Source: a virus
IMG/VR virus record: IMGVR_UViG_3300029911_000002
Span: 1-64,000 of that record
Reading direction: 5' to 3' (one strand)
DNA length: 64,000 bases
Shown: positions 321 to 30,511 of the stretch, piece by piece
Layout of the letters: the number at the start of each line of letters is the position of its first letter
Numbering within the stretch: position 1 is the stretch's first letter
Made by a program: the position numbers and the translations under genes
The notes under the pieces: model-generated
Told to the model about the DNA's origin: nothing
Seen by the model: only the letters and a program-made list of their open reading frames with translations
Databases searched by the model: none

Positions 321-499
321 TATCTTTTTATGATGATTTTTTTAAAAAATATAACACGTATACGATAGTTCAAATTTTAAATAATGGTATTACATTTGGA
401 CTAGGAATTAAAGAGATAGGTGGTTATTACTCATCAAATTATTTCATAACTTTAAAAGAATATAGAAAATTAAAACTTCAAAAATTAGAATTGTTATGA
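321..499 (+). pseudogene. 5'-truncated small RK-tail gene
   Basis: An open frame without a start codon encodes the second half of a small SH3-like protein. It has the family's Y-N-x-Y-T-I segment and ends in ITLKEYRKLKLQKLELL before TGA at 497-499. The usual N-terminal G-D-K-V-V-C-I part is missing; the inverted-repeat segment 1-320 sits in its place. It may be an exon whose 5' part lies left of the window, or a remnant. Confidence 0.5.
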
Positions 500-743
500 T
501 AACTAATATAAATAAATATGATAAAGTAGTATATATTTTGGTCATGATGGTAAAATTAGTCAGTCTAAATTTATCTATGGTAATATTTATACAGTAACAG
601 GCTACTTTCGATCTTATATACCAGAATTGTCTTATATAACTACAGATGAAATAGAAAATTTTTATATTTATCTTAATTTTTTTATTACATTAAAAGAATA
701 TAGAAAATTAAAACTTCAAAAATTAGAATTATGTTTAGAGTAG
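496..743 (+). pseudogene. Small RK-tail gene with a frameshift
   Basis: ATG at 496 overlaps the previous TGA (ATGA). The first frame reads MITNINKYDKVVYI and then fails. The next frame continues from about 550 (G-H-D-G-K ... YTVTGYF) and ends LKEYRKLKLQKLELCLE, TAG at 741-743. The break is in TATTTTGG near 546, a T run, so one extra T would explain it. It is either a decayed paralogue or a homopolymer error. Confidence 0.55.
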
Positions 744-940
744 GAGAAAAAATAGTTTATATAAAGCAATCATATACTGGACTTAAATTAGCATCAATTC
801 ATATTATAAAAGATATTAGATTTGATACTAGTATATCATTAGAAGATTCTTATAAAAATTGGTGGTTTTCATCCGAATGTTTTATATCACTATCTGAATA
901 TCGAAAACAAAAACTTAATGAATTAAAAAAAATATCATAA
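731..940 (+). CDS. Small SH3-like RK-tail protein
   Basis: A 69-residue product of unknown function. The start R-V-G-E-K-I-V-Y-I matches the G-D-K-V-V-C-I signature shared by many genes here, which looks like the first strands of a small SH3/KOW-type barrel (fold is inference). It ends in SEYRKQKLNELKKIS. The start overlaps the end of the preceding frameshifted gene. Confidence 0.7.
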   Translation: MFRVGEKIVYIKQSYTGLKLASIHIIKDIRFDTSISLEDSYKNWWFSSECFISLSEYRKQKLNELKKIS

Positions 941-1005
941 TATTTTTTTATTCAAAATTAATTTCATATATTTGCACATTAAATGTTTAACTAAATAATT
1001 ATAAT

Positions 1006-2067
1006 ATGATAGATAAAAATATTTGTATACCTGGCAACATATTTGTTGTAAATAACAAAGTTTCAAAAGTAAATAATCAATATAATGATTATTATAATCA
1101 AAAAGACTCATTAGGATTAAATGCTTATATTCATATGAAAGATGGAATAGATTATTCTGGTTATAACATGATTGAAATTCCATCAGGTACAAAAATTGAA
1201 ATAATTAAATTTAAAAATGCAACAGCATTTTTTAAAATAATAAGTGAGCCTAATAATATTTATTCTGCATATTGGTCTCCATTTAAAGTTAAAGTTGATA
1301 AAATTGAAGGTCAAGAAATTAGTGAACCTGAAGTTATACCAACTAGATATAAAATCTTCTATAAAGGAAAAGCTCACAAGCCAAAATATTTCAATGATCT
1401 TGGTAAAGTTAAAGCATCATTACTTATTACAATTGGATATTATGAAAATCAATATGAAATGTTCCAAAAATATATTGATCGTAATCCAGAATTAGAAGAC
1501 TCACAAATTCCAGAATGGTGTCAATCTGCGAATGAAACATTTGATAGAGATGATTGTAAATATCTTGAAATTATGTCATACGTTAATGGTGATAACAAAC
1601 ATCCTATCAAATTTGATTTTGATATGCTTAAATATTATGATGATTCAATGAGATTGATTAATGTCACTGCTCAGTTTGGCAACGCAGCAAGAGAAGTATT
1701 CAAAAATGTAATGAATACAAAAGAATATTCTTATATGTTAGTTTATTATCCTTATGAATATCGTAATCCTAATAATTTTGATGTAAGTTATGGCTATAAA
1801 AGTAGTAATTTTGATTTTAGTGAATTGAAAGAAGATCAAAGAATTAAAGACATTTTAAAAGAATCTGGGATCAAAGGAACAAAAAAATCTACCAAATTTG
1901 GTAAAACTGCAATAGCTTTTAAAACTCTTGATGATCTTAAACAAGTTATGTTAAGGCTAGAACCAAAAGAATATTTTATTCTTGATTGTGACGGTGATCA
2001 ATTAATTGAAAAAAATACAAGATTTATTAAATTAATTATGCTTCAAGAAGAAAATTTTGATGAATAA
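1006..2067 (+). CDS. Hypothetical protein, 353 aa
   Basis: I do not recognise this protein. It is hydrophilic, without signal peptide or membrane segment, and much longer than its neighbours. Visible parts are an N-terminal C-I-P-G-N-I-F-V-V stretch (residues ~6-14), an aromatic Y-W-S-P-F segment (~90) and a C-terminal YFILDCDGDQ segment (~325-334). A TATATTTG box lies about 35 bases upstream (967-974), so it may have its own promoter. The stop is 3 bases from the next start, suggesting cotranscription with the small genes downstream. Confidence 0.8.
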   Translation: MIDKNICIPGNIFVVNNKVSKVNNQYNDYYNQKDSLGLNAYIHMKDGIDYSGYNMIEIPSGTKIEIIKFKNATAFFKIISEPNNIYSAYWSPFKVKVDKIEGQEISEPEVIPTRYKIFYKGKAHKPKYFNDLGKVKASLLITIGYYENQYEMFQKYIDRNPELEDSQIPEWCQSANETFDRDDCKYLEIMSYVNGDNKHPIKFDFDMLKYYDDSMRLINVTAQFGNAAREVFKNVMNTKEYSYMLVYYPYEYRNPNNFDVSYGYKSSNFDFSELKEDQRIKDILKESGIKGTKKSTKFGKTAIAFKTLDDLKQVMLRLEPKEYFILDCDGDQLIEKNTRFIKLIMLQEENFDE

Positions 2068-2070
2068 TAT

Positions 2071-2373
2071 ATGAAAATAGGAGATAAAATATTTTGCTTA
2101 GATTATCAAATATATTCGGATTATAATGACGATATTAAATATAAAGGAGGATTATTAAAAAAAAATACAGAATATACAATCTATGGTATTTTTTTAGAAT
2201 TTAGTGATTATTCTGAAAAATGGGTAGCAGAAACTCCTAAGATAGATGATAATAATTGTCAAATATATTTTGAATTAATTGAACTTGATGAGTTGATGTT
2301 TAATAAATGTAGATTTTTAACTAATAATGAATATAGAAAACTTAAGTTGCAGAAAATATATGAAAGTAGGTGA
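2071..2373 (+). CDS. Small SH3-like RK-tail protein
   Basis: 100 residues. Starts M-K-I-G-D-K-I-F-C-L-D (SH3-like signature) and ends NEYRKLKLQKIYESR. It is the first of three tandem overlapping paralogues (2071, 2360, 2580); each stop overlaps the next start by about 14 bases. Function unknown. Confidence 0.75.
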   Translation: MKIGDKIFCLDYQIYSDYNDDIKYKGGLLKKNTEYTIYGIFLEFSDYSEKWVAETPKIDDNNCQIYFELIELDELMFNKCRFLTNNEYRKLKLQKIYESR

Positions 2374-2593
2374 TAAAGTAATTTTTCATAGTAATCATTA
2401 TTATAGAGATTTAATAGAAGGTTACACATATACAATATCTGAAATTAATAGAATAGATGATGCTTATATTGAAATACCTAACGAAGATTATATTATAGTA
2501 TTATTAGAAAATACTTACGTTTTTTTATCAGATTTTATAACTATAAAAGAATATCGAAAACTTAAATTGAAAGAAATAGATGAAAGTAGGTGA
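2360..2593 (+). CDS. Small SH3-like RK-tail protein
   Basis: 77 residues if started at the ATG at 2360, chosen over 2327 because only this start gives the family opening M-K-V-G-D-K-V-I and the usual short overlap with the upstream gene. Ends KEYRKLKLKEIDESR. Second member of the tandem trio. Confidence 0.72.
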   Translation: MKVGDKVIFHSNHYYRDLIEGYTYTISEINRIDDAYIEIPNEDYIIVLLENTYVFLSDFITIKEYRKLKLKEIDESR

Positions 2594-2783: not shown

Positions 2784-2785
2784 TA

Positions 2786-2817
2786 TTTGGTAGTTATAAA
2801 AAAATATATTATCTTTA
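2786..2817 (+). promoter_or_regulatory. Bacteroidota-type promoter
   Basis: TTTG (2786-2789), 20-nt spacer, TATCTTTA (2810-2817), one base off TAnnTTTG. It lies just upstream of the LOG-family gene at 2822, so the leader would be very short. Confidence 0.5.
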
Positions 2818-2821
2818 TAAT

Positions 2822-3391: not shown

Positions 3392-3721
3392 ATGACTGTA
3401 TTTTATACATATTTATTTGGTGTGATAGTAGTATTTATTCTAATTATAAATATTCATATATTAGATGAAAAAACAAAATATAAAGATGATGATAGAGATT
3501 TATCTATAAAATACTATATATTATTTTATATTTTTAATATATTTTGTTATTTATTTTTAAATGTAATACGTGAAAAAAGAAAAATAAATTATTATAAATA
3601 TTATATAAAATGTTTTGATGATAATAGAATATATTTTGAATTATCATTTAGTTTAGAAATTGAAATCAAAAAAAGAAATAAAATAATTAGATATTTAAAA
3701 ATTAAACAATTAAAAAAATAA
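3392..3721 (+). CDS. Small membrane protein, paralogue of next gene
   Basis: 109 residues with two predicted membrane segments (~4-22 and ~45-62) separated by a conserved LDEKTK-DD-R loop. It ends IIRYLKIKQLKK, a variant of the RK tail. The neighbour at 3741 shares the loop, the second membrane segment (IFYIFN-FC-LFLN-IRE) and the tail, so this is a tandem duplication. Function unknown. Confidence 0.75.
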   Translation: MTVFYTYLFGVIVVFILIINIHILDEKTKYKDDDRDLSIKYYILFYIFNIFCYLFLNVIREKRKINYYKYYIKCFDDNRIYFELSFSLEIEIKKRNKIIRYLKIKQLKK

Positions 3722-3740: not shown

Positions 3741-4106
3741 ATGATAATAGCAGTAAAAGTGTATCAAATTATTTTATTTATGATATTAATTGCAATTATT
3801 TATAAAATTGTTCTGGTATTAGATGAAAAAACAAAATTTCCTGATGATCATAGAAAAATATCTTTTAAATATTCTATATTTTTTTATATTTTTAATGCTT
3901 TTTGCTTTCTATTTTTAAATACTATAAGAGAAAATAGAAAAAATGATTATTATAAATATTACGTAAAATATTATAAAAAATATAAAAAATCACTTGATTT
4001 TTTAACTAAATATTCTATATATGATGATTGTAATGCAATAAATTATAATATTAAAACTTATAATAAAATACTTAGATATTTAAAAATTAAACAATTAAAA
4101 AAATAA
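3741..4106 (+). CDS. Small membrane protein, tandem paralogue
   Basis: 121 residues. Same layout as 3392: N-terminal membrane helix, VLDEKTKFPDDHRK loop, second helix, charged tail ending ILRYLKIKQLKK. The ~23 bases after both stop codons (TAATCATTATATAAAC region at ~3719 and ~4104) are nearly identical, marking the duplication boundary. Confidence 0.75.
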   Translation: MIIAVKVYQIILFMILIAIIYKIVLVLDEKTKFPDDHRKISFKYSIFFYIFNAFCFLFLNTIRENRKNDYYKYYVKYYKKYKKSLDFLTKYSIYDDCNAINYNIKTYNKILRYLKIKQLKK

Positions 4107-4599: not shown

Positions 4600-4926
4600 A
4601 TGATAATGAAAAACGTCAAAGATGATTTAGAAAAAGATAAATTATTTATATTAATTGACAACAAGCTTGATGTTACTTATGGAGGAGTTCAAGGTGCTCA
4701 CGCTTCATGCCAATGGTTACTTGATCATAAATAGGTGCAAACCTGGAATAATCAATACTTAATTTTTCTATCTGCAGAACTTGAAAAATGGATATTTAAG
4801 TTAACTCTTAAAAATATAGATTTCACAGTGTTCTATGAACCTGATTTAGATAATAAACCAACTGCATTAGCAGTACATGGCAATGATTCTCTATTTCGTA
4901 ATTTAAAACTTTGGGGTGCTTTATAA
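4600..4926 (+). CDS. Pth2-like peptidyl-tRNA hydrolase family protein with in-frame TAG
   Basis: One frame runs from ATG at 4600 (or 4606) to TAA at 4924-4926, interrupted only by TAG at 4732-4734 (codon 45). The N-terminal half has the Pth2 signature Q-x-x-H-A in GGVQGAHASCQWLL. The second half has FYEPDLDNKPTALAV, which matches the E-P-D-x-x-N-x-x-T-A-I/L-A pattern of phage Pth2-like proteins. Both halves are needed for the fold, so the protein is functional only if TAG is decoded. Pth2 enzymes release tRNA from peptidyl-tRNA. A tRNA with anticodon CUA starts 23 bases after the stop. Alternatives are a recent nonsense mutation or two separate ORFs (GTG follows the TAG directly). Confidence 0.7.
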
Positions 4927-4948: not shown

Positions 4949-5019
4949 GCTCATTTAGTCCAGTGATAGGGCGGTAGCCTCTAAAACTACCTACATCGGT
5001 TTGAATCCGATAGTGAGCA
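4949..5019 (+). tRNA. Candidate amber suppressor tRNA, anticodon CUA
   Basis: Cloverleaf: acceptor GCTCATT (4949-4955) with AGTGAGC (5012-5018), 7 bp including one G-U; T8 and A9; D stem GTCC/GGGC around AGTGATA; anticodon stem GTAG/CTAC with a C-A mismatch next to the loop; loop CTCTAAA (4979-4985) with U33 and anticodon CTA (4981-4983); variable CTAC; T stem ATCGG/CCGAT around TTTGAAT; discriminator A. No CCA is encoded, fitting the CCA-adding enzyme at 38229. Weak points are the mismatch at 31-39 and a D loop without GG. The loop CTCTAAA is identical to that of classical amber suppressors such as E. coli supF. The charging amino acid cannot be told from sequence. Confidence 0.7.
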
Positions 5020-5053
5020 CAAATATATTTTTCATAAGGTATATTTATTTTTA

Positions 5054-5152: not shown

Positions 5153-5578
5153 ATGATTGTAAATATTGTAAATTATGTAATGAGTAGTTCATATATATCA
5201 TTAAATACTGATTATAATATTTTTTATAATAATAATGATTCTATTAAAATATTAGATTTTAATAAGATGCTTGATATTACTATATCAATGAAAATAAATA
5301 ATATAAATTTAGGTGGACTATTATGGTTCGTTAAAGAAATTCGTATGTATGAAATATGTCAATTAAAAGAATGTAAAGATTTTACTGATATGTTGAGAAT
5401 GATTGGTATAATAATTGGCACAAATACTATATCTATAAGTGATGAAATATATTCAATAAAAGGTTTAACTTTATTAGAATTAACTCACATAATTGATAAT
5501 AATCCTGATAATTCATTTCAGAAATTACGAACATATATTAGAAAGAAAAAACTTGAAAAAATAATGATAGATGCTTAA
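5153..5578 (+). CDS. Hypothetical RK-tail protein, 141 aa
   Basis: Start at 5153 (MIVNIVNYV) chosen because the upstream in-frame ATG at 5126 falls inside the promoter -7 box. Function unknown. It shares the pattern ISDEIYSIKGLTLLELTHIIDNN with the protein at 6780 (I-E-D-I-K-G-I-T-L-H-Q-F-N), so the two are distant paralogues. Ends YIRKKKLEKIMIDA. Confidence 0.7.
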   Translation: MIVNIVNYVMSSSYISLNTDYNIFYNNNDSIKILDFNKMLDITISMKINNINLGGLLWFVKEIRMYEICQLKECKDFTDMLRMIGIIIGTNTISISDEIYSIKGLTLLELTHIIDNNPDNSFQKLRTYIRKKKLEKIMIDA

Positions 5579-5825
5579 CGTTGGAGACAAAATTTATTTT
5601 ATTAAATCTTTATGATACAATATAGATTTACCATCAAATAAAGAATTAACAATCTTACATATATTTGATTGCCGTAATAATATTGTAATAGGAGGAGTTA
5701 CTACTGTAATTAGAATAAAAGAAGCTATAATTGTTGATGATTATTATTCAGAACAATTTTTATCATTGAAAGATTATAGAAAAGAAAAACTAAAAAAATT
5801 ATCAAATATATGCAAGCTTGGGTAA
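5571..5825 (+). pseudogene. Small SH3-like RK-tail gene with in-frame TGA
   Basis: ATG at 5571 overlaps the previous gene. Reads M-L-N-V-G-D-K-I-Y-F-I-K-S-L, then TGA at 5613-5615, then stays open through a full family-like body to the tail LSLKDYRKEKLKKLSNIC and TAA at 5823. Everything but codon 15 looks intact. TGA is a normal stop elsewhere here, so this is probably a nonsense mutation or an error; TGA read as Trp cannot be excluded. Confidence 0.5.
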
Positions 5826-6064
5826 AAAAACATAATTCAACATTTTATTGTATTGATAACTATATAAAAAAAGATAATAAAAATTATAATCTTAAATCTT
5901 ATAAAATGGGTACATCTTTTGATAAATATACTAATTTTAGAATAATATACTATGATAGTAATATATCAAGACAAGTTTTTTTTTCAAATATAACATTATC
6001 TGCTAATGAATATAATAATTTTATAAGAAAAACAAAAATTGAAAAATTATCAAAATATGAATGA
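5810..6064 (+). CDS. Hypothetical RK-tail protein
   Basis: 84 residues, opening MQAWVKKHNSTF and ending FIRKTKIEKLSKYE. It resembles the next gene: both begin with an aromatic segment, carry KKDN-K-Y and end in the RK tail. Overlaps both neighbours. Function unknown. Confidence 0.65.
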   Translation: MQAWVKKHNSTFYCIDNYIKKDNKNYNLKSYKMGTSFDKYTNFRIIYYDSNISRQVFFSNITLSANEYNNFIRKTKIEKLSKYE

Positions 6065-6320
6065 TTGGATAAATAAATGGATAGAAAGAAAAAATGAATT
6101 ACCATTATTTTTTGATTATATTATTAAAAAAGATAATGAAAAATATGAATTTTATTCATATATGAAATTAACAACTTATGAATTTAGCATAAAAGTTAAA
6201 TTGTCATATTATATTATAAATGTAGATACTATGTTTTCAGATGAAAAAGAAATATCATTTAATTCATTTAATAATTATCTTAGAAAAATTAAATTAGAAA
6301 AATTAAATGAAAATATCTAA
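6057..6320 (+). CDS. Hypothetical RK-tail protein
   Basis: 87 residues from the ATG at 6057 (MNDWINKWIERK); an ATG at 6039 is also in frame but overlaps the upstream coding region more. Contains YIIKKDNEKYEFYSY, similar to the gene at 5810. Ends YLRKIKLEKLNENI. Confidence 0.65.
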   Translation: MNDWINKWIERKNELPLFFDYIIKKDNEKYEFYSYMKLTTYEFSIKVKLSYYIINVDTMFSDEKEISFNSFNNYLRKIKLEKLNENI

Positions 6321-6594: not shown

Positions 6595-6783
6595 TGAAGA
6601 ATTTATTCTTAATAAAAAATATACTATTGACGATATAAAATATCATATATCAATAATGAAATTAATATTGATATTACATATTTAATAGCTGATAATAAAT
6701 ATAAACAATTTAATTATTATATTTATATTTTAGAATACGTAAAATATATAAGAAAATTTAAATTATCTAAAATAATATTATGA
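6549..6783 (+). pseudogene. Frameshifted RK-tail gene
   Basis: The ATG at 6549 opens MKITKKDMMIYILNHDEEF and continues to about 6655 (DDIKYHIS). The frame then shifts; the following frame reads N-N-E-I-N-I-D-I-T-Y-L-I-A-D-N-K and ends YIRKFKLSKIIL, TGA at 6781-6783. Together the two frames make one typical family member. Confidence 0.5.
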
Positions 6784-7208
6784 TAAACGTAAAGTTATAT
6801 AATAAAGAATTATTTACTAAACATAATTTGTTTATTGAAGTCTGTATTCCTAATGATAAATATAATTCTATATCTCATTTATTTGATGTAATAATAAATA
6901 AATTAATAGAGTATAAAAATAGAGATGTTTATTTTGCTTCTATTCGTAGTTTAATAGGTATAATGCTAGTTGAAATGAAACATGTAGATGAATTGGAATT
7001 AGAAGATTTTTTTAGAATTTTTCAATATAGATTTGATGTGCTTGATAATAAAATAGATGTGTTTAATGGATGGTATCATTTTATAAATCAAGATATAGAA
7101 GATATTAAAGGAATAACTTTACATCAATTTAATATGATGATTAATGATGATAAATATATTAAAAAATATTTTAGAATGATTAAACTTCAAAAATTATCAA
7201 AATTATGA
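6780..7208 (+). CDS. Hypothetical RK-tail protein, 142 aa
   Basis: Distant paralogue of 5153 (shared IKGITLHQFN-type segment at ~115). No known domain recognised. Ends YFRMIKLQKLSKL. Stop and next start overlap (ATGA). Confidence 0.7.
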   Translation: MINVKLYNKELFTKHNLFIEVCIPNDKYNSISHLFDVIINKLIEYKNRDVYFASIRSLIGIMLVEMKHVDELELEDFFRIFQYRFDVLDNKIDVFNGWYHFINQDIEDIKGITLHQFNMMINDDKYIKKYFRMIKLQKLSKL

Positions 7209-7576
7209 TAGTAGAATATTATAATATAGATTTTTCAATAAATTATCAATCTGAAGAAATAGATTCAAATAGAATATATAATATTATTAAAAATTATATA
7301 AATAATTATATAATGATATATAAAAATAATCCTCATATTTATGTAGGTAAGGATTGTTTTGATTTTATTTTATATTCCGATAAATTTCATCTTATTTCTT
7401 ACAAATCATCAAAACCTTATATCGGAATATTATATGACTGTTATCTTTATATAAACACAGATTTACAAGAAGGGGATTTTTATTTATCTAATAATAAAAT
7501 AGATTTTAAACAATATAATAGAAAATTAAAAATAGAAAAAATAAATAATTATTATAATGAAAATAGTAAAATTTAA
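7205..7576 (+). CDS. Hypothetical RK-tail protein, 123 aa
   Basis: Opens MIVEYYNIDFSINYQ and carries the tail YNRKLKIEKINNYY plus seven further residues that overlap the next gene's start. Function unknown. Confidence 0.68.
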   Translation: MIVEYYNIDFSINYQSEEIDSNRIYNIIKNYINNYIMIYKNNPHIYVGKDCFDFILYSDKFHLISYKSSKPYIGILYDCYLYINTDLQEGDFYLSNNKIDFKQYNRKLKIEKINNYYNENSKI

Positions 7577-7900
7577 TGTTGAAATATTTGATAATTATAT
7601 ATTAAAAACTACTAGGATTTTTACGAATTATTATATAAAGAAATATCTAAAAATTTTAATGATTATGGAGTTGCTGTTGTTTTTAGTCGTAAAATGATGG
7701 ATAATTTAAATTATCTTAATTGTAATTATAAAATTCATATTCAATATCAAGTAAATGATTATATAAACATAAATGATGTTTTTATATATCCATATTATGC
7801 AGCCAATGAATGTGATATTATATTAACAGATTTTGATTTTATTAAATATTATAGAAAACAAAAACTTAAAGAAATATGTTTAAACCAGGAGATAGAGTAG
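7557..7900 (+). pseudogene. Frameshifted RK-tail gene
   Basis: The ATG at 7557 opens MKIVKFNVEIFDNYIL and runs to about 7622 (KTTRIFT). The next frame continues E-L-L-Y-K-E-I-S-K-N-F and is open through the ATG at 7694 to the tail YYRKQKLKEICLNQEIE at 7900. One missing or extra base near 7622 (after ATTTTTAC) separates the halves. The second half alone (from 7694) could still be translated. Confidence 0.5.
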
Positions 7901-8118
7901 TTTGCATAAATGATGAAAATAATTGTGATCCAAATATAAATCTAATTAAATATAATATTTATATTGTAAAAGAGTTACATGAATATACCAATAATAGAAT
8001 AATATTAGAATATCATGAAAATAGTTTATATTATAATACTAGATTTATATTATTAAAAGAATATAGAAAAGAAAAACTCAAACAAATAGAATTATGTTCA
8101 AACCAGGAGATAAAGTAG
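7876..8118 (+). CDS. Small SH3-like RK-tail protein
   Basis: 80 residues: M-F-K-P-G-D-R-V-V-C-I-N, central IKYNIYIV strand, tail KEYRKEKLKQIELCSNQEIK. It is one of the run of close paralogues between 7876 and 9742 (with 8789 as an unrelated insert). The start overlaps the previous stop by 25 bases because CSNQEI codons double as the next gene's start. Confidence 0.75.
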   Translation: MFKPGDRVVCINDENNCDPNINLIKYNIYIVKELHEYTNNRIILEYHENSLYYNTRFILLKEYRKEKLKQIELCSNQEIK

Positions 8119-8330
8119 TGTGTATTAATGATAAATATTTTTATAATGATAAATCTATAATAGAAATGATTAAATATAATATTTATACAATAAATAGAAT
8201 TGCAGAAATTTCAGGTAGCAATACAGATAGAGTTGTATTATATGAATGTAAACGTATGTATTTTTCACACAGATTCATATCATTAAAAGAATATAGAAAA
8301 CAAAAATTATTAGAAATATGTTCAAAGTAG
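8094..8330 (+). CDS. Small SH3-like RK-tail protein
   Basis: 78 residues: M-F-K-P-G-D-K-V-V-C-I-N, IKYNIYTI strand, tail KEYRKQKLLEICSK. Its stop is TAG (8328-8330), one of the few natural TAG stops in the window. Confidence 0.75.
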   Translation: MFKPGDKVVCINDKYFYNDKSIIEMIKYNIYTINRIAEISGSNTDRVVLYECKRMYFSHRFISLKEYRKQKLLEICSK

Positions 8331-8584
8331 GAGATAAAGTAGTTTGTATTGATGTTAAAAAATATAATAATAATAATTATAATGTAAACCTAATTAAATA
8401 TAATATTTATACAATTAATATAGATTTTTCAGTTTTTGATAGATCAAGTTTTGGTAGATCAAGAGTTGAAATAAAAGAATGTTGTAATGAGACATTTTAT
8501 TCAGAGAGATTTATATTATTAAAAGAATATAGAAAACAAAAACTCAAACAAATAGAATTATGTTCAAACCAGGAGATAAAGTAG
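8318..8584 (+). CDS. Small SH3-like RK-tail protein
   Basis: 88 residues: M-F-K-V-G-D-K-V-V-C-I-D, IKYNIYTI strand, tail KEYRKQKLKQIELCSNQEIK. Tail and overlap with the next gene are nearly identical to those of the gene at 7876. Confidence 0.75.
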   Translation: MFKVGDKVVCIDVKKYNNNNYNVNLIKYNIYTINIDFSVFDRSSFGRSRVEIKECCNETFYSERFILLKEYRKQKLKQIELCSNQEIK

Positions 8585-8799
8585 TTTGCATTGATCAACA
8601 ATATAGAAAAAAATACAATTTACCTAATACAATATTAGAAGTTACAGAATATAAAGATATAAGATATAAAAAATTATTTAGTGAAAATTTTATTATTTGT
8701 TTCAAAGATATAAAATATGGATATAATTATAATTGTTTTATGCTATTAAAAGAATATCGTAAATTAAAATTATTAAAATTAAATAAAAATGATAAGTGA
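8560..8799 (+). CDS. Small SH3-like RK-tail protein
   Basis: 79 residues: M-F-K-P-G-D-K-V-V-C-I-D start, divergent middle without the IKYNIYT strand, tail KEYRKLKLLKLNKNDK. Confidence 0.73.
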   Translation: MFKPGDKVVCIDQQYRKKYNLPNTILEVTEYKDIRYKKLFSENFIICFKDIKYGYNYNCFMLLKEYRKLKLLKLNKNDK

Positions 8800-9070
8800 A
8801 TCAAGTCTTGTTAATTATATAGAAAATCTAAATCTTAGAAAAACCCATGAATGTTTTGATACTAACTATATAATTGATAATAATTATATAATATGCATTG
8901 AATCATCTACTAATGTTTTTTTCATAGATAAAAAAATGAATTCGAACCTGTATATTTTCATAATTAATATTGAAAAATTAAAAGATATTTATTATAAAAA
9001 AACTGGTAAAAATATAGAAATTTTAATGAGAAAAGAAAAACTAAAAAAATTAGAAGAATGTTCAAGATAA
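8789..9070 (+). CDS. Hypothetical RK-tail protein with unrelated body
   Basis: 93 residues opening MISESSLVNYIENLN, with no SH3-like signature, yet ending LMRKEKLKKLEECSR. It shows that the tail is shared by proteins whose bodies are not homologous. Confidence 0.7.
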   Translation: MISESSLVNYIENLNLRKTHECFDTNYIIDNNYIICIESSTNVFFIDKKMNSNLYIFIINIEKLKDIYYKKTGKNIEILMRKEKLKKLEECSR

Positions 9071-9282
9071 GAGATAGAGTAGTTTGCATTGATAATTCTT
9101 ATTTATATGATATAAATCTATTACAATTAAATAATATTTATATAATTGAAGATATTTTTAGTTATGATACAGAAAATAATTATATTGGTATGATATTAGA
9201 AAAATATAATTTTGAATTTAATTCTAATAGATTTATATCATTAAAAGAATATAGAAAACAAAAAATATTAAAATTATGTTAA
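9058..9282 (+). CDS. Small SH3-like RK-tail protein
   Basis: 74 residues: M-F-K-I-R-D-R-V-V-C-I-D-N-S-Y-L; tail KEYRKQKILKLC. Near-paralogue of 9276 (both have CIDNSYL-D). Confidence 0.74.
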   Translation: MFKIRDRVVCIDNSYLYDINLLQLNNIYIIEDIFSYDTENNYIGMILEKYNFEFNSNRFISLKEYRKQKILKLC

Positions 9283-9521
9283 AACCAGGAGATAAAGTAA
9301 TTTGTATTGATAATTCTTATTTAGATGATAATAGTATGAGAAAATTATTATTAAACCATATTTATATAATTAAACTATGCTTTACATATCAATCAGATCA
9401 TTTTAATTATATTATATTAGAAAATGATTTTGAATATCATGAAAATAGATTTATAACATTAAAAGAATATAGAAAACAAAAACTATTAAAATTATGTTCA
9501 AACCAGGAGATAAGTTATTAG
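9276..9521 (+). CDS. Small SH3-like RK-tail protein
   Basis: 81 residues: M-L-K-P-G-D-K-V-I-C-I-D-N-S-Y-L; tail KEYRKQKLLKLCSNQEISY overlapping the next start. Confidence 0.74.
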   Translation: MLKPGDKVICIDNSYLDDNSMRKLLLNHIYIIKLCFTYQSDHFNYIILENDFEYHENRFITLKEYRKQKLLKLCSNQEISY

Positions 9522-9742
9522 AAATATCAACTAACAAAATTTTCACATTCTGTGATTATATAAAAACTATATCATATTCATCAAATTATAATGATATGAT
9601 AGTGAATGATTATGATTATGAAAATGGTTTAATATCAATCAATGAAGATGCAGAAAATTATCATAGAATTAATAAATATTTATCTATTAAAGAATGTAGA
9701 AAAGAAAAACTTAAAAAATTATATAAAGATTTTAATATTTAA
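9494..9742 (+). CDS. Small SH3-like RK-tail protein
   Basis: 82 residues: M-F-K-P-G-D-K-L-L-E-I; divergent body; tail KECRKEKLKKLYKDFNI. Last member of this tandem run. Confidence 0.72.
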   Translation: MFKPGDKLLEISTNKIFTFCDYIKTISYSSNYNDMIVNDYDYENGLISINEDAENYHRINKYLSIKECRKEKLKKLYKDFNI

Positions 9743-10102: not shown

Positions 10103-10490
10103 AATAAACTTTTTTAAAATATTATACTATTAAATATAATTAAACAAATAGTTCTTTGATGTCATGATAAAAGTAATAAGTTTGATTAAAAATCAAACTG
10201 AAACTTTTAATCGTTATACATATCAATAATATTGATTACAGTAAACATAGAACGATTAATACACTTTTAAATACATCTTAACAACGGACTATAATAAGTC
10301 TTAAAAATGGTTGTTCGTTATGTAGTTTAAATAATTAAAAGCGACTACGATTTCTTTAAATTATTAAAGAATAGTGTGTTCGGATAAAGAATTTCATCAA
10401 ACGAAATTCAAACGTCACAGCAAGTACAAATTTGTATAAGTTTAAGTTGACGGTATACCTATTAATATATCAACCATGTGGATTAATCAT
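10103..10490 (+). ncRNA. Candidate structured RNA with several hairpins
   Basis: No ORF. At least five perfect local hairpins: GTTTGATT/AATCAAAC (10180-10198), ATCAAT/ATTGAT (10222-10236), GAATTTC/GAAATTC (10389-10409), plus GACT/AGTC and AACAAC/GTTGTT around 10275-10320. AATCGTT and AACGATT enclose the second hairpin. The motif ATCAACCA-Y-GT near the 3' end also occurs at ~168 in the segment 1-320, so the two may be related. No promoter or terminator seen. Confidence 0.45.
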
Positions 10491-10493
10491 GAT

Positions 10494-10577
10494 ATGAAAG
10501 TTATCATAAAAAAAGATTTAGTTGGAAGTAAATTAAGAAAAAGAAAATTATTAAAAATAAATGAAAATAGGAGATAA
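10494..10577 (+). CDS. Tail-only mini ORF
   Basis: 27 residues: a ten-residue lead (MKVIIKKDLV) and then little more than the RK tail, SKLRKRKLLKINENR. It overlaps the next start as full-length members do. It is probably the remnant of a gene whose body was deleted, or a leader that couples translation to the gene at 10561. Confidence 0.4.
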   Translation: MKVIIKKDLVGSKLRKRKLLKINENRR

Positions 10578-10785
10578 AGTTTTATTTACTGATTATTTTT
10601 ATGAACATCATAAATATATAACAGATAATAGATATAATATTTTTACAATCAAAGATTATTTTAGCGATAATTTCACCATTATTTCTTTATATGAACTTCC
10701 AATGTATTATTTTGAACCAAAAAATTTAATAACAGTATCAGAAATTAGAAAAAAAAAATTAAAAAAATTAAAAATATATGAATAA
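10561..10785 (+). CDS. Small SH3-like RK-tail protein
   Basis: 74 residues: M-K-I-G-D-K-V-L-F-T-D; tail SEIRKKKLKKLKIYE. Overlaps the NMN adenylyltransferase start by 8 bases, so translation is probably coupled. Confidence 0.73.
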   Translation: MKIGDKVLFTDYFYEHHKYITDNRYNIFTIKDYFSDNFTIISLYELPMYYFEPKNLITVSEIRKKKLKKLKIYE

Positions 10786-13582: not shown

Positions 13583-13804
13583 ATGTTTAAACATGGTGAT
13601 GTAGTAATTGCATTAGAAACATATGATAATTTAATTGTAATAAATAATTCTTATATTATTGAACGTACTGGATATGTGAAAAATAGAAAAAAATATTATG
13701 TAATATTACAGTATCCGCCTGGTTTTTATATAGAAGAAGAAAAATTTAAATTAGATATAAAATATCAAAGAATAGAAAAATTGAAAAAAATATGCAAAAT
13801 ATAA
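13583..13804 (+). CDS. Small SH3-like RK-tail protein
   Basis: 73 residues: M-F-K-H-G-D-V-V-I-A-L; tail YQRIEKLKKICKI, a divergent version. Overlaps the next gene by 13 bases. Confidence 0.7.
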   Translation: MFKHGDVVIALETYDNLIVINNSYIIERTGYVKNRKKYYVILQYPPGFYIEEEKFKLDIKYQRIEKLKKICKI

Positions 13805-14136
13805 TAAATAGCAGAAATATTATTAATAATATTAGTCATGATGCTCATAAATTATTAATTTATATTTATGAGAATGGTAGTGCTGAATATAAAGATCCAC
13901 AATATCAATCTATCTCTGATTTTATAGGCAATTCATTATATTTGAATCTTGTTGAAGAATTTAAAATAAGAAATTGTGACGGTACACTTTATTTAATACC
14001 AGAGTTAATAAAATATTCATTAGTTGATAAATATTTTTCAGAATATACTGATAAATATATATTATCTGATTTTGGTAAAAAAATACTTGTTAGCGTTATT
14101 AGAAAAGAAAAATTAAAAAAATTAGAAAAATTATAA
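13792..14136 (+). CDS. Winged-helix-like RK-tail protein
   Basis: 114 residues. Helix H-K-L-L-I-Y-I-Y-E-N-G-S-A-E-Y, a central V-E-E-F-K-I-R-N-C-D-G-T segment, then YILSDFGKKIL, which resembles the L-T-x-x-G-x-x-L wing end of small winged-helix proteins. Tail VIRKEKLKKLEKL. The resemblance to DNA-binding winged helices is weak. Paralogue of the broken gene at 13256. Confidence 0.65.
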   Translation: MQNIINSRNIINNISHDAHKLLIYIYENGSAEYKDPQYQSISDFIGNSLYLNLVEEFKIRNCDGTLYLIPELIKYSLVDKYFSEYTDKYILSDFGKKILVSVIRKEKLKKLEKL

Positions 14137-16849: not shown

Positions 16850-17128
16850 ATGATTAAAGTAAATATTATATTATCCGAGATTAACTATTATAAAAATAAG
16901 TTAACTGAATTTGAAAAGGAGCATATTACAATTGAAAATAATATTAAAACAGTACATATAAAATCGGTTAATGATTGTAATAATTATGTTAATATTATGA
17001 AATCATTAAATGAATATGAAAATAAATATAAAAATGCAATAGAATATAATGCTAAAATTGATATTAGAAAAGATAAGTTAAAACAATTATCAAAATATTA
17101 TCATTATTGTAATAAAATTAATATTTAA
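16850..17128 (+). CDS. Hypothetical coiled-coil RK-tail protein
   Basis: 92 residues with heptad-like helices (NYYKNKLTEFEKEHITIENN) and tail IRKDKLKQLSKYY. Function unknown. Confidence 0.65.
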   Translation: MIKVNIILSEINYYKNKLTEFEKEHITIENNIKTVHIKSVNDCNNYVNIMKSLNEYENKYKNAIEYNAKIDIRKDKLKQLSKYYHYCNKINI

Positions 17129-18659: not shown

Positions 18660-18998
18660 ATGATTGATAAAAAAAGATTAAAAGAACACCTTAATAATGG
18701 TAAAATAGAATATGTTATGTGCGCTTCTAATTGGATAGATGATGGAATAGATTATCTTTATAAGCCATATAATATAGATAAAGGAATTTGCTATAATAGC
18801 GTACGGCATCCTTGCATATATGAGCAAACAAATAAAATTTATCCTGCTGAAAAATATGGAATGTTGACTGTTGAAGGATTTTTAACTACAAAAAATAGAT
18901 TTCTTAATAGAGAAGAAGCTTTAGAATTAGTTAAATCAAATGATCAGTTAAAACAAGATTTAATAGGTAGTGTATTAACATCTGAAGATTTATGGTAA
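18660..18998 (+). CDS. Hypothetical phage protein, 112 aa
   Basis: The C-terminal half has the pattern V-E-G-F-L-T-T-K-N-R-F-L-N-R-E-E-A-L-E-L (~78-97), which recurs in many uncharacterised phage proteins of about this size (G-F-x-T-S-x-G-R-F-V-x-R-x-E-A). Function unknown. Overlaps the next start by 7 bases. Confidence 0.7.
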   Translation: MIDKKRLKEHLNNGKIEYVMCASNWIDDGIDYLYKPYNIDKGICYNSVRHPCIYEQTNKIYPAEKYGMLTVEGFLTTKNRFLNREEALELVKSNDQLKQDLIGSVLTSEDLW

Positions 18999-19252
18999 AT
19001 AGAAATATAATTAAAATAGGATATATGAGAATTAATATAGATACTATTTTATGCTATTATATTGGTAGAGGTGATAAAACTATTATAATTCAAAGATCAC
19101 TAGATGATATAAATGATATTGAAATAGATTTTGATAATAATATAGAATGTGAAAAATCATTAGCTGAATTAGATTCATTATTAGTTTTAAATGCTCATAA
19201 TTATATAAGAAAATTAAAAATAGAAGAACTAAATGATAATAGAACGAGATAA
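18992..19252 (+). CDS. Hypothetical RK-tail protein (pair with 19233)
   Basis: 86 residues. I-I-K-I-G-Y-M-R-I-N-I-D-T-I-L-C-Y-Y aligns with the next protein's I-K-I-G-D-Y-R-L-K-I-D-S-I-F-A-Y-Y, so the two are tandem paralogues distinct from the SH3-like group. Tail YIRKLKIEELNDNR. Confidence 0.7.
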   Translation: MVNRNIIKIGYMRINIDTILCYYIGRGDKTIIIQRSLDDINDIEIDFDNNIECEKSLAELDSLLVLNAHNYIRKLKIEELNDNRTR

Positions 19253-19508
19253 AATTAAAATAGGTGATTATAGATTAAAAATTGATAGTATATTTGCATA
19301 TTATCCTACTACAGTTGAAGAAAATGATCGTTGGTTTATTGTAATTGAACGTGACGTACCAGATGGTATTACAGAATTAGAAGTCGAATTTGATACAGAA
19401 GAAGAAAGAGATAAAGTTTTATTAGAATTAGATAAATTATGTACTATTGATCCAATGAATTTAAGAAAAGAAAAATTAGAAGAAATAAATAAAAATGGAA
19501 AAATTTAA
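19233..19508 (+). CDS. Hypothetical RK-tail protein (pair with 18992)
   Basis: 91 residues; acidic middle (TELEVEFDTEEERDKVLLEL) and tail LRKEKLEEINKNGKI. Overlaps both neighbours. Confidence 0.7.
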   Translation: MIIERDKIKIGDYRLKIDSIFAYYPTTVEENDRWFIVIERDVPDGITELEVEFDTEEERDKVLLELDKLCTIDPMNLRKEKLEEINKNGKI

Positions 19509-22393: not shown

Positions 22394-22615
22394 ATGAAAA
22401 TTAAAATATTTAATTACTATTTCGGTACCAGACTTGCATATGCTGATACTATTACTAAACTTGAGTATGAATTGAATCATTGGATAGAATATGATAAACC
22501 TGAAATTAAACAATTCACACAATCAAATACTAAAGAATATTTAATATATACCTTTTTATATTACGAAAAAAAAGAATTAAGAAAAACAAAACTTGAAAAA
22601 ATTAATGAATTATGA
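22394..22615 (+). CDS. Hypothetical RK-tail protein
   Basis: 73 residues, MKIKIFNYYFGTRLAYAD start, not SH3-like; tail KELRKTKLEKINEL. Overlaps the next start (ATGA). Confidence 0.66.
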   Translation: MKIKIFNYYFGTRLAYADTITKLEYELNHWIEYDKPEIKQFTQSNTKEYLIYTFLYYEKKELRKTKLEKINEL

Positions 22616-23537: not shown

Positions 23538-23569
23538 TTTGGTTAATCCATAATATAGTTGTATCTTTG
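23538..23569 (+). promoter_or_regulatory. Bacteroidota-type promoter
   Basis: TTTG (23538-23541), 20-nt spacer, TATCTTTG (23562-23569). Full consensus, leading into the gene at 23602. Confidence 0.78.
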
Positions 23570-23601
23570 TAAGCTATATTATGGATTTATTAATTTATAT
23601 T

Positions 23602-23838
23602 ATGAAACAAGGGGATAAAGTAGTTTGTATATGTAACACAAGAGGAGCCTTTATGGGGAGTCCAAGATTATATGTAGGTAAAACATATACAGTAAAAGAT
23701 TATCATATGGTAGGATTTTCTGCAAATTTTATATGTCTTGATGAGCATCCACAATATTCATATACAGAAAAAGATTTTATAACTCAATCTGAAAATAGAA
23801 AAAATAAGTTAAATAAAATAAATAAATGTATAATATGA
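23602..23838 (+). CDS. Small SH3-like RK-tail protein
   Basis: 78 residues from ATG 23602; the in-frame ATG at 23581 lies only about 11 bases after the promoter box and gives an atypical start. Opens M-K-Q-G-D-K-V-V-C-I and ends SENRKNKLNKINKCII. First gene of a new operon after the tRNA-like cluster. Stop overlaps the next start (ATGA). Confidence 0.75.
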   Translation: MKQGDKVVCICNTRGAFMGSPRLYVGKTYTVKDYHMVGFSANFICLDEHPQYSYTEKDFITQSENRKNKLNKINKCII

Positions 23839-25057: not shown

Positions 25058-25456
25058 ATGGAATCAGATTCAAAATGTCCAAAATGTGGTTCATATAGAT
25101 TCTACGATGGTACTAAATGTACAAATTGTGGATATAAGAATGATAATCCTGATGATGATATAATTATATGTCCTGGATTTTTTAAATATGATAAATTAAA
25201 TATGATAAATATGGTGTGGGGAGTTGATAGTGGAAGTATAGATGATAAAATTTTAAAGCCATTAGGATTAGTTTGTGATGGAGGTGGATCATTTAAAAAT
25301 AATGAGCTTAGTTATCATGTTACAAATATTAATAGTAATAAAAATAAAATTGATATTTATCTTACTAAAAAAGAATTTAATAATATTGAAAATTATATGA
25401 AAAAATATAATAAAGAAATTAGATTAAAAAAATTAAAAATATTAAATTTAAAATAA
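25058..25456 (+). CDS. Zinc-ribbon protein with degenerate RK tail
   Basis: 132 residues. N-terminal zinc ribbon C-P-K-C-G-S ... C-T-N-C-G-Y (Cys at ~7, 10, 20, 23), then a body with NMVWGVDSGSIDDKIL. Ends EIRLKKLKILNLK. The ribbon suggests nucleic-acid or protein binding; no specific family recognised. Confidence 0.7.
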   Translation: MESDSKCPKCGSYRFYDGTKCTNCGYKNDNPDDDIIICPGFFKYDKLNMINMVWGVDSGSIDDKILKPLGLVCDGGGSFKNNELSYHVTNINSNKNKIDIYLTKKEFNNIENYMKKYNKEIRLKKLKILNLK

Positions 25457-28206: not shown

Positions 28207-28427
28207 ACGAATTATCTTTAAAATTAAAGAATGAATTGATTAATGATTTAATGACATCTCCAAGAAATTTAGATGTAGAATATCTTCATGTTGGAATGAA
28301 AGTATACTCCAGACGAGAGTTGGCTAATGAAATTAAAAATGAAACTGAATTTGGATTAGAGTGGCTAGCAACATCAATAACTGTTGCAATAAATATAATT
28401 GCTAAGGATTCATTAAAAAATAAATAA
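28194..28427 (+). CDS. Hypothetical helical protein, 77 aa
   Basis: Acidic helical protein, with Y-S-R-R-E-L-A-N-E-I-K-N in the middle and a hydrophobic helix near the end (ATSITVAINIIA). Function unknown. Confidence 0.62.
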   Translation: MENINELSLKLKNELINDLMTSPRNLDVEYLHVGMKVYSRRELANEIKNETEFGLEWLATSITVAINIIAKDSLKNK

Positions 28428-28461
28428 AGAAAATTATAATAAACAATAAATAAAAATTAAA

Positions 28462-28800
28462 ATGAAAGAAAAAATTAAAGAATACCCAGTTATTACGACA
28501 GAAGAATTCGAAGCAAAAAAATTATTTATGATAATTGATGTTCTTGATATATTTTATAAAAAGCATATCAAAAATAGTATAGAGTCAGTAAATATTGTTC
28601 TTAATTTTTTTGATAAATTCTCAAAAGAAAATAATATACAATGTAAAAATTTGTATGTAGTATCATTTGAATATAAAGGAGATGTAGTAGGATATTATGG
28701 ATGCTGTGATATATTATCAGATGAATATTTAGAAAAATTTAGTGACTATTGCGATAATATCGGATTAGATTTAGATTATTATATCGAAGATAATGATTAA
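28462..28800 (+). CDS. Hypothetical protein, 112 aa
   Basis: Not recognised. Contains V-V-G-Y-Y-G-C-C-D-I-L with vicinal Cys (~80) and an acidic end. Overlaps the next start by 8 bases. Confidence 0.65.
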   Translation: MKEKIKEYPVITTEEFEAKKLFMIIDVLDIFYKKHIKNSIESVNIVLNFFDKFSKENNIQCKNLYVVSFEYKGDVVGYYGCCDILSDEYLEKFSDYCDNIGLDLDYYIEDND

Positions 28801-29257
28801 TTTAAAAAAAATTAACGGAAATGAAATTATAGATTTCATTAACAAATCATATGAAGATAATGATGATCTTGATGATTGCTCACTAGGATTTCCACTTACA
28901 TTTGAAAGTCAAAGAATTTTCAATGACAGATATGAATTGAGATTTATGTCCCGTTATAATAATTGGGGTAGTAACGGTACATTACAACCTATATCTGATA
29001 ATATTATTGCTATTGATGAAGAAGGTAATATTATAATAGGATTAGAAGAACCTTTTGAAGATGATGAAAGTTCTGATATATTAGAAGATATACTAAGCAA
29101 ATGGTTACCTACTCATGTTTTCAGTGATCAATCTGAAAATTTTAATAATATAATGATTGACGCACGTGAAAAAATTAATAAAATTTCTATTAACGATATA
29201 AATCTTATGGATAATATAATCAAACAATTAACCAATGCTAGAACAATGATGAAATAA
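28793..29257 (+). CDS. Hypothetical acidic protein, 154 aa
   Basis: Not recognised. Many Asp/Glu; contains RYNNWGSNGTLQPISDNIIA (~63-82) and a helical C-terminus. Confidence 0.68.
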   Translation: MINLKKINGNEIIDFINKSYEDNDDLDDCSLGFPLTFESQRIFNDRYELRFMSRYNNWGSNGTLQPISDNIIAIDEEGNIIIGLEEPFEDDESSDILEDILSKWLPTHVFSDQSENFNNIMIDAREKINKISINDINLMDNIIKQLTNARTMMK

Positions 29258-29258
29258 T

Positions 29259-29456
29259 ATGAATGCTACTGAAATTGTTACAAATAGAGAAGATTTTAAA
29301 GATAAATTAAAAAAACTTTTCATTCCATCATGTATAAAGGATTTTGGTGATATAGAACCATTTAACATAGGATACGCAATGAAAAACTGGACATTTTTTT
29401 ATTATTCTGTTGAAAATATTGGAATACATACAGTAGAATTAATTGAAAATAAATAA
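29259..29456 (+). CDS. Hypothetical protein, 65 aa
   Basis: Not recognised; MNATEIVTNREDFKDKLKKL start and an aromatic middle (KNWTFFYYS). Sits directly before the ART-like gene. Confidence 0.58.
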   Translation: MNATEIVTNREDFKDKLKKLFIPSCIKDFGDIEPFNIGYAMKNWTFFYYSVENIGIHTVELIENK

Positions 29457-29457
29457 T

Positions 29458-29865
29458 ATGAAAAAACAATTTATATCACCTTTTAATGAGGAGTCTTTTG
29501 AAAAAGAATTTATTCAACATGATATTAGTAAATATGATGTTTTGTATCATGTAACAACTGAAGATAGAATAGAAAATATTAAAAATGATGGACTGAAAAT
29601 TAACCAGCCTCAGTATAAATCACTTGTTGAGACAGGGATGTTGTTCTTTTCTTATCCTATACTACATAATACTCAAGATTTATTTAGATATTATGATAAA
29701 TCGTATATTGTAGCACTTGATGTACAAAAATTGATTAAAGATGGTATTATTTTTTATGATGATAATTTCTCAAATCAAGATCAATCATCAAATAGAAATC
29801 ATTTATGCTGTGAAGTAGATATACCAGTTAAATATATTAAAAAAATTATAGAACCATTTGAATAA
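29458..29865 (+). CDS. ADP-ribosyltransferase-like fold protein (tentative)
   Basis: 135 residues from ATG 29458. The segment YDVLYHVTTEDRIENIKNDG (~27-46) matches the first core motif of ART-fold proteins such as DarT/KptA relatives (L-Y-H-x-T/S ... I-x-x-I-x-x-x-G-L). A later Y-I-V-A-L-D-V strand and E-V-D-I-P-V-K-Y-I-K end are also ART-like. Catalytic residues past the first His cannot be assigned, so enzyme activity is unproven. If active it would use NAD+. Confidence 0.5.
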   Translation: MKKQFISPFNEESFEKEFIQHDISKYDVLYHVTTEDRIENIKNDGLKINQPQYKSLVETGMLFFSYPILHNTQDLFRYYDKSYIVALDVQKLIKDGIIFYDDNFSNQDQSSNRNHLCCEVDIPVKYIKKIIEPFE

Positions 29866-29867
29866 TA

Positions 29868-30065
29868 ATTTGCATTGAAAATATTAATTCAATTGATGCG
29901 TTCACTCGTAATTTGCCATTATTTAAGCCTTTGCATGTAGTATCTAATGATCAATTTAGAATTGAATTTAAAGAATATAAAAATAGGTTATATTATAAAA
30001 ACCGTCATATATTTATTACACCATCTGAATATAGAAAACTTAAATTAAATAAATTAAATAATTAA
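29868..30065 (+). pseudogene. 5'-truncated RK-tail gene
   Basis: Open frame after TGA with no ATG: begins ATA-ATA-ATT-TGC-ATT and reads ICIENINSIDAF ... LPLFKPLHVV, aligned with the gene at 30275 from its C-T-H position onward. The first ~8 codons (M-I-K-P-G-D-I-L) are gone. Ends SEYRKLKLNKLNN, TAA 30063-30065. Confidence 0.5.
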
Positions 30066-30291
30066 ATCTGGCGATATATTAATTTGTACTCAGCATAATT
30101 CAAGTTTTGGGTTCACTAACACTAACTTAAAACTTTTTACTCCATTGCATGTTAAACATTTAAAATATGGAGATACATTTGAATTTTATGAATATCCAGG
30201 TAAAACTTATATATCTGAATATCACACTTTCATAAAATTATCTGATTATAGAAAACTTAAATTAAATAAATTAAATGATAAAACCTGGTGA
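30058..30291 (+). CDS. SH3-like RK-tail gene with ATA in place of ATG
   Basis: The full family body is present (I-K-S-G-D-I-L-I-C-T-Q ... LFTPLHVKHL ... SDYRKLKLNKLND), in one open frame to TGA 30289-30291. The codon aligned with the start of its paralogue 30275 is ATA (30058-30060), followed by ATT. It overlaps the upstream stop in the usual way. It may be translated from ATA/ATT by coupling, or be a dead copy. Confidence 0.5.
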   Translation: MIKSGDILICTQHNSSFGFTNTNLKLFTPLHVKHLKYGDTFEFYEYPGKTYISEYHTFIKLSDYRKLKLNKLNDKTW

Positions 30292-30511
30292 TATATTAAT
30301 TTGTACTCATAATAAAGAAGGTTCAAGTAAAATTGAACTTTTCAAACCTTTACATGTTAAACTAACAACAAATGATGATCATTTTTTTGAATTTGAAGAA
30401 TTTGAAAATGTTGCATACACCAGTAATTATCATATTTTTATAAAATTATCTGAATATAGAAAACTTAAATTAAATGAATTAAATGAAATCTCAAATAAAG
30501 AAATTTATTGA
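30275..30511 (+). CDS. Small SH3-like RK-tail protein
   Basis: 78 residues: M-I-K-P-G-D-I-L-I-C-T-H, KPLHVKL strand, tail SEYRKLKLNELNEISNKEIY. The intact last copy of a three-gene tandem (29868, 30058, 30275). Confidence 0.74.
   Translation: MIKPGDILICTHNKEGSSKIELFKPLHVKLTTNDDHFFEFEEFENVAYTSNYHIFIKLSEYRKLKLNELNEISNKEIY

Follow-up and report, generated by a model that had tools for sequence, protein, structure and literature searches.

A shared C-terminal RK tail on unrelated small proteins of an AT-rich large-phage clade: a candidate docking motif

Introduction

The cargo-loading peptides of encapsulins and microcompartments are short, often C-terminal, and common to unrelated cargo. In phage T4, internal proteins carry a terminal capsid targeting sequence (CTS) of ~10 residues, which can be transferred to foreign proteins, GFP among them (PMC9958956). 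Here we analyze the RK tail, a C-terminal 12-mer with the core R-(K)-x-K-[LI]-x-x-[LI] that recurs on small proteins encoded in a window of 64,000 nucleotides (bases 1-64000 of the IMG/VR virus record IMGVR_UViG_3300029911_000002, which is linear, 214,510 bases long, and has ~22% GC). Like the CTS, which targets one structure, the RK tail is a short terminal peptide on otherwise different phage proteins.

We propose, with a probability of roughly 0.6, that the RK tail serves as a portable docking motif, a short linear motif of one helix, at the C-terminus of many unrelated small accessory proteins in a single clade of large, AT-rich phages related to T4. The T4-type genes of the record include those for a UvsW N-terminal domain and gp32, both recognized with Pfam. 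Because many operon heads carry the element TAnnTTTG, which matches the -7 box of Bacteroidota, we infer a host from that phylum. For most small early genes of large phages, no function is known; a docking tag would offer one peptide, with one partner, as a handle on the whole accessory arsenal of such a phage, and its sequence would serve as a signature in the search for new counter-defence proteins.

Results and discussion

Detection and consensus of the RK tail

The record was represented by 390 genes from a simple caller of our own, whose starts are approximate, and the C-termini of these genes and of their relatives were scored with a 12-position position-specific matrix. The tail was found on 84 of the 390 genes, about one in five. 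Shuffling the last 25 residues of each protein (30 trials) gave a mean of 0.87 tailed genes record-wide and a maximum of 3, while 54,694 internal positions contained 8 matrix matches. Within the window, a six-frame search with the pattern XXX[YILFV]R[KR]x[KR][LIM]x[KEQN][LIM] returned 34 matches, 33 of which sit 1-12 residues before the stop of small plus-strand open reading frames (ORFs). Of the called tailed genes, 40 lie in the window and 34 of these within 321-30511, where three extra tails lie on ORFs outside the gene calls (two likely remnants and one with an in-frame TGA). The totals are thus ~37 in 321-30511 and 43 in the window. A preliminary description of this DNA had claimed about 45 tailed proteins in 321-30511; the tail is statistically real and broader than was first seen, but the count in that interval is smaller.

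Relatives of the record were located in IMG/VR via the SH3-like family of tailed proteins, and eight of them (G002-G009) were read in large part; all contain tails. Other contigs in which the exact pattern occurred together with one or more tailed gene calls came from the same sample series, and contigs of other series that matched the pattern by chance had no tailed neighbours. One additional series, 3300009502 (L114), belongs to the clade. Nine related records provided 378 distinct tails, with an effective number of 140 after similar tails were down-weighted. Counted from the arginine, the fixed positions are R (0.99), K at +3 (0.99), L/I at +4, and L/I at +7, where the invariance of R and K is partly true by definition, as the matrix penalizes their loss. 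Lysine at +1 (0.68) is common but not fixed. The motif is not strictly terminal, since 1 to ~13 residues come after it. TLKEYRKQKLLKL is an example of a tail peptide. The consensus given earlier, with its conserved E-Y-R-K, needs correcting: E-Y before the arginine characterizes the SH3-like subfamily alone.

Protein bodies carrying the tail

When bodies without their tails were compared by BLAST across the nine records, the tailed proteins fell into 111 clusters, the largest being the SH3-like family of 142 proteins (nine records). The same motif stands on unrelated domains: Tad3, SH3-like, ResIII-type ATPase-like, and DUF6794 bodies all bear it. All tailed proteins are shorter than 300 residues and of accessory type. 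The SH3-like tailed proteins had no relative in the genome collection, three tailed proteins from the window's record had none among cultured phages, and scanning the 84 tailed proteins against Pfam and PHROG produced scattered weak matches only. Of the bodies proposed earlier, the SH3-like ones form the largest cluster, and the winged-helix and zinc-ribbon ones found only weak support (zinc ribbon, E ~0.004). As a separate observation, a DUF6794 homolog of the phage LR756500 (L187, ~394.3-395.4 kb) is seemingly broken by an in-frame stop, possibly through recoding or as a broken gene.

The clearest case of an added tail is Tad3 (PF25185), an inhibitor of type I Thoeris. A tailed homolog in three records matched PF25185 with 127 bits (cut-off 27, E 3e-37) and the PDB entry 9b7d with E 3e-24. 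Four versions in the clade extend past the segment ...QLKE[IV]WxYYEHQE with tails of the type [TL]xSYIRYKKLKKLK, whereas all the other distinct Tad3 homologs listed from IMG/VR, dozens in number, stop at or before the end of that segment. None of these tailless homologs, the nearest (L121, with 26% GC, L122, and L115) included, has tailed neighbours. AlphaFold predicted a confident body for the tailed Tad3, a link with pLDDT ~66 after helix 167-177, and a separate helix at 182-193. Since the tailless homologs stop before the tail and the predicted helix is separate, the tail has plainly been appended to Tad3. Tad3-type homologs in relatives were found at L081:6601-7185, L048:12930-13514, and L071:3031-3603, and a large gene of the window's record matches the CBASS inhibitor Acb3. 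The tailed gene L009:14380-14778 (MKIRNGFVSNSSSS) has a related tailless neighbour at L009:14784-15260; orthologs in G002 and G005 are also without an RK tail.

Could all tailed proteins be diverged copies of one fold, with the tail as a last helix kept for folding? The size of the SH3-like cluster fits such an origin, but Tad3 is a separate family with its own PDB match and is tailless in other phages, and the ResIII-type and DUF6794 proteins are tailed as well. We regard the one-fold explanation as very improbable; it is refuted for Tad3 and could hold only inside the SH3-like family.

For the commonest tailed body, the best viral fold matches, found in BFVD, were small SH3-like phage proteins (TM ~0.6-0.75), several of which have 63 residues, about the length of the tailed SH3-like body without its tail helix. 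Searching the PDB with the AlphaFold model of an SH3-like protein gave nothing beyond weak matches to SH3, PWWP, and Tudor folds, from which no function was inferred.

Selection on the peptide

The codons at the fixed sites of the 84 tails follow genome usage. At the fixed arginine, AGA was counted 71 times (65 expected) and the other 13 of 84 codons were different arginine codons; at the fixed lysine, AAA was counted 79 times (77 expected); and the leucine sites showed TTA 52 (52.5 expected), CTT 8 (8.7), and TTG 7 (6.5). We then compared 199 ortholog pairs (reciprocal best matches from related records) whose bodies were <90% identical. Their mean aligned body identity was 0.60, while tail identity reached 1.00 at R, 0.98 at K(+3), and 0.89 (L5) and 0.78 (L8) at the leucine sites. 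Synonymous differences at R/K/L amounted to 0.17/0.12/0.41 in the tail and 0.21/0.12/0.37 in the body. The motif is thus more conserved than the body at the protein level, with body-like synonymous drift. Among 435 best body homologs chosen without a tail requirement, 400 retain the tail, which removes most of the invariance bias of the matrix. Most of the 35 homologs below the tail threshold show a weakened tail, and it is clearly absent in orthologs and in a paralog of gene 78380. Selection on the protein, and not only on A-rich DNA, had been suggested before, and the codon usage and the fixed R and K agree with it.

That the tail is mere translation of A-rich DNA coupling overlapping genes, the peptide itself having no role, is scarcely tenable. 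Coupling fits the concentration of tails in overlapping genes (56/142 vs 28/249) and for the codon preference of overlapping tails, whose AGA share is 0.91 (0.83 in non-overlapping tails, 0.77 genome-wide) and whose AAA share is 0.93 (0.88 and 0.89, respectively). It does not account for the unbiased leucine codons, the arginine codons other than AGA, or the lack of interchange between R and K. Moreover, the distance from the arginine to the stop varies far less (sd 6.7 nt) than that to the next start (sd 46 nt), and tails are also retained where no gene follows closely. A further comparison came from LR756511 and LR756500, which were located via a shared kinase-phosphatase gene and first sampled as candidate tail carriers; they proved to be without tails except for one weak match and now serve as controls. 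In LR756500, a huge phage with 24% GC, two stretches had 0/129 tailed genes and a third had one weak match among 113, so that AT-rich DNA alone (1/242 genes) does not yield the tail. The preliminary description had named two outcomes that would refute selection on the protein, tail codons without a synonymous excess and a motif explained fully by A-rich coupling DNA; neither was borne out. As a complete explanation, coupling DNA is itself refuted, and what survives is the partial AGA bias in overlaps. It is a secondary effect: some of the codon choice and gene packing can be put down to it, but not the peptide. A scan for stop-codon read-through between relatives was noisy, with out-of-frame matches predominating.

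The position of the tail, ~9-20 codons before the stop, and its enrichment in overlapping arrays would also suit a nascent basic peptide that slows termination from within the ribosome exit tunnel and thereby lets ribosomes re-initiate on the overlapping next gene. Since known arrest peptides depend on exact register, the tail-to-stop distance, which varies by several residues, counts against such a role, as do the tails retained on genes without a downstream neighbour. We consider an exit-tunnel function improbable.

Proposed docking helix

On a helical wheel (100 degrees per residue, with the preceding hydrophobic residue as 0), the fixed R+1, K+4, L/I+5, and L/I+8 fall at 40, 80, 100, and 140 degrees. 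The fixed residues therefore share one face of ~100 degrees, with the variable residues opposite. The helical moment of conservation was 0.44 (permutation p 0.03). AlphaFold also places the tail in a C-terminal helix in two different bodies, the SH3-like one and Tad3. Localization, RNA/DNA binding, and assembly had been suggested earlier as possible functions; the helix geometry, together with portability, favours a protein docking motif, as judged from the sequences.

The composition, basic and hydrophobic, would also suit a general amphipathic helix with affinity for nucleic acid or membrane, and some of the bodies, being SH3-like or small, could bind nucleic acid. Such a helix would, however, hardly require R and K to be fixed and non-interchangeable on a face of fixed leucines, as a simple membrane helix does not, and the flanks show no enrichment of additional fixed basic residues. 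We consider this explanation unlikely, if less so than the others weighed here; the non-interchanging arginine and lysine on the leucine face suggest a specific protein groove rather than general charge.

If the tail is a docking motif, its fixed face would insert into a partner groove that offers acidic residues and hydrophobic pockets, and a single partner would be common to all tailed proteins. The portability of the tail, the accessory bodies of <300 residues, and the Tad3 case suggest recruitment to a shared partner or site. The tag might in this way gather early host-takeover and counter-defence proteins at one place or complex. Either a host protein or a hub protein of the phage could be the partner; that the tag is confined to one clade slightly favours the latter, in a clade-specific form. 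In overlapping arrays, the tail DNA would double as an A-rich leader for the next start, in a secondary role.

Several observations weigh against a docking role. A purely protein-level signal would not need gene overlap, and yet the tails are concentrated in overlapping genes. Significance is only moderate in the helical-moment test, for which the matrix partly determined what counted as a fixed position. Finally, in the AlphaFold model (pLDDT 88.5) of the SH3-like gene at 8094-8330 (tail 8283-8318, LKEYRKQKLLEI), the tail lies inside a confidently predicted C-terminal helix (residues 64-77), which may there pack against the SH3-like body itself.

Tailed genes in the window

All tailed genes of the window lie on the plus strand. 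Along the first 5 kb, a tailed gene at 627-743 (tail 690-725, LKEYRKLKLQKL) precedes SH3-like genes at 731-940 (tail 890-925, LSEYRKQKLNEL), 2071-2373 (2323-2358, NNEYRKLKLQKI), 2327-2593 (real start probably 2360; 2543-2578, IKEYRKLKLKEI), and 2580-2783 (2733-2768, IKEYRKRKLKKL). Two hydrophobic, membrane-type products follow at 3392-3721 (3677-3712, NKIIRYLKIKQL) and 3741-4106 (4062-4097, NKILRYLKIKQL). Further tailed genes were found at 5153-5578 (5528-5563, RTYIRKKKLEKI), 5810-6064 (6014-6049, NNFIRKTKIEKL), 6057-6320 (6270-6305, NNYLRKIKLEKL), 6780-7208 (7161-7196, KKYFRMIKLQKL), 7205-7576 (7508-7543, KQYNRKLKIEKI), and 7697-7900 (7841-7876, IKYYRKQKLKEI).

The gene modelled with AlphaFold stands among other SH3-like genes at 7876-8118 (8053-8088, LKEYRKEKLKQI), 8318-8584 (8519-8554, LKEYRKQKLKQI), 8560-8799 (8746-8781, LKEYRKLKLLKL), 9058-9282 (9241-9276, LKEYRKQKILKL), 9276-9521 (9459-9494, LKEYRKQKLLKL), and 9494-9742 (9686-9721, IKECRKEKLKKL), with a tailed gene at 8789-9070 (9017-9052, EILMRKEKLKKL) between them. 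A 33-residue tailed ORF at 10476-10577 (10524-10559, GSKLRKRKLLKI) is followed by SH3-like genes at 10561-10785 (10735-10770, VSEIRKKKLKKL) and 13583-13804 (13757-13792, IKYQRIEKLKKI). Downstream, tails occur at the ends of genes 13792-14136 (14089-14124, VSVIRKEKLKKL), 16850-17128 (17054-17089, KIDIRKDKLKQL), 18992-19252 (19196-19231, HNYIRKLKIEEL), 19233-19508 (19452-19487, PMNLRKEKLEEI), and 22394-22615 (22568-22603, KKELRKTKLEKI). The SH3-like gene at 23581-23838 (23785-23820, QSENRKNKLNKI) has TATCTTTG upstream at 23562, and the product of 25058-25456 (25409-25444, NKEIRLKKLKIL) is a weak zinc-ribbon match. Short tailed ORFs at 29931-30065 (30021-30056, PSEYRKLKLNKL) and 30145-30291 (30238-30273, LSDYRKLKLNKL) precede an SH3-like gene at 30275-30511 (30446-30481, LSEYRKLKLNEL).

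Beyond the interval 321-30511, the window contains a tailed gene at 55572-55862 (55821-55856, NSFLRKKKLKLL), a Cys-rich one at 55859-56182 (56126-56161, VQYVRKTKLDNL), and four genes of the MKYLCKK family: 61653-61868 (61818-61853, ETEIRKIKLEKL), 61902-62138 (62085-62120, IQELRKLKLKKL, with TATCTTTG upstream at 61876), 62122-62376 (62323-62358, again IQELRKLKLKKL), and 62360-62569 (62519-62554, MPEIRRKKLAKL), after which the next gene is on the opposite strand.

The three tails outside the gene calls comprise TLKEYRKLKLQKL at 452-490, in an ORF without a usable start (306-490), YVKYIRKFKLSKI at 6739-6774, which ends a 50-codon frame (6686-6775), and SLKDYRKEKLKKL, on an SH3-like ORF at 5577-5801 with one in-frame TGA. 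All three are probably decayed copies of tailed genes within the arrays, which suggests fast gene turnover.

Other features of the window were also noted. A peptidyl-tRNA hydrolase-like gene (4600-4926, plus strand) is split by an in-frame TAG that is kept in the relative G002, and directly 3' of it lies a tRNA gene (4949-5020, plus strand) with the suppressor-type anticodon CTA; TAG terminates only 25 of the 390 genes of the record. A minus-strand gene at 58238-58777 encodes a protein with several KLSLLTP-type repeats, over which an open frame runs on the opposite strand.

Second tag class and promoters

A second set of ~60 genes in the record shares an N-terminal MK[YH][IL]K.FE and a C-terminal NKFN[LI]. 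In the window, regions of this class (MKY[IL]KTFE / NKFN[LI]) occupy 33287-34696 (minus), 40003-43816 (minus), 46823-47511 (plus), and 53031-55125 (minus). Its bodies are ankyrin, leucine-rich, and SH3-like, the repeat types being judged by eye. No protein in the nine records bears both tags. A profile of the SH3-like bodies with RK tails matched G000_96809 of the second set (E 8e-8) and others more weakly. The two classes together make up close to 40% of the genes in the window's record.

The ends of second-class genes are near-constant also as DNA, AAATTTAA[CT][AT]TATGA/TAA (e.g., at 33609, 42346, and 54376 of the window), with ATA for the last Ile and TTA for the last Leu in almost all copies. 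Because these codons are near-invariant even without overlap, a DNA-level role is likely at these ends, unlike at the RK tail.

The promoter elements differ between the classes. TAnnTTTG was present at 16/62 RK operon heads (2.6 expected) but at 2/68 second-class heads (3.1 expected), whereas T[TA]ATATATA preceded 48/68 second-class genes (4.3 expected) and only 5/62 RK operon heads; it is also enriched before large genes (34/124). The T4 late promoter TATAAATA was not enriched. From these elements, we read the RK class as probably early and the second class as probably late in expression. Before large genes of the window's record and its relatives, we also observed the inverted pair ACTCAGTTA / TAACTGAGT, with 6 instances of each, hundreds-fold above expectation.

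The two classes can tentatively be combined into a two-address sorting scheme, which we put forward as a possibility less probable than the docking role itself. The C-terminal RK helix would address early accessory and counter-defence proteins, and the MKYIKTFE + NKFN[LI] pair late proteins, the addresses being mutually exclusive but interchangeable on the SH3-like body. If so, gene content could change rapidly under constant addresses. LR756500 has shared ends of its own at 300001-350000 (L099), with MKYIKEYEEF-type N-termini (MKYI in 11 genes of 50 kb) and, close to some C-termini, NADDFGF. To judge from these sequences, AT-rich huge phages may commonly carry shared terminal peptides.

Comparison with known systems

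The T4 CTS is N-terminal, differs in sequence, and belongs to scaffold-core proteins, whereas the RK tail is C-terminal, stands on ~20% of genes, and is associated with host-type promoters. Internal or N-terminal RK matches are rare, and the elements at RK operon heads (TAnnTTTG 16/62, T[TA]ATATATA 5/62) do not point to late expression. The MKYIKTFE class is a better CTS analogue than the RK tail. N-termini such as MKTYLQYIKEA (171228 of the record) resemble the capsid targeting sequence of T4.

The cargo peptides of encapsulins and microcompartments differ in sequence from the RK tail; no encapsulin or shell protein turned up in our analysis, although no search for one was made. Tad3 elsewhere has no RK tail, whereas the homolog in this clade is tailed. 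The literature consulted described no such shared C-terminal tail in phages and offered nothing relevant for Tad3, absence from a library being weak evidence. Shared terminal targeting peptides are already known, whereas a C-terminal one on a fifth of the genes of a phage, with the RK sequence, is apparently new.

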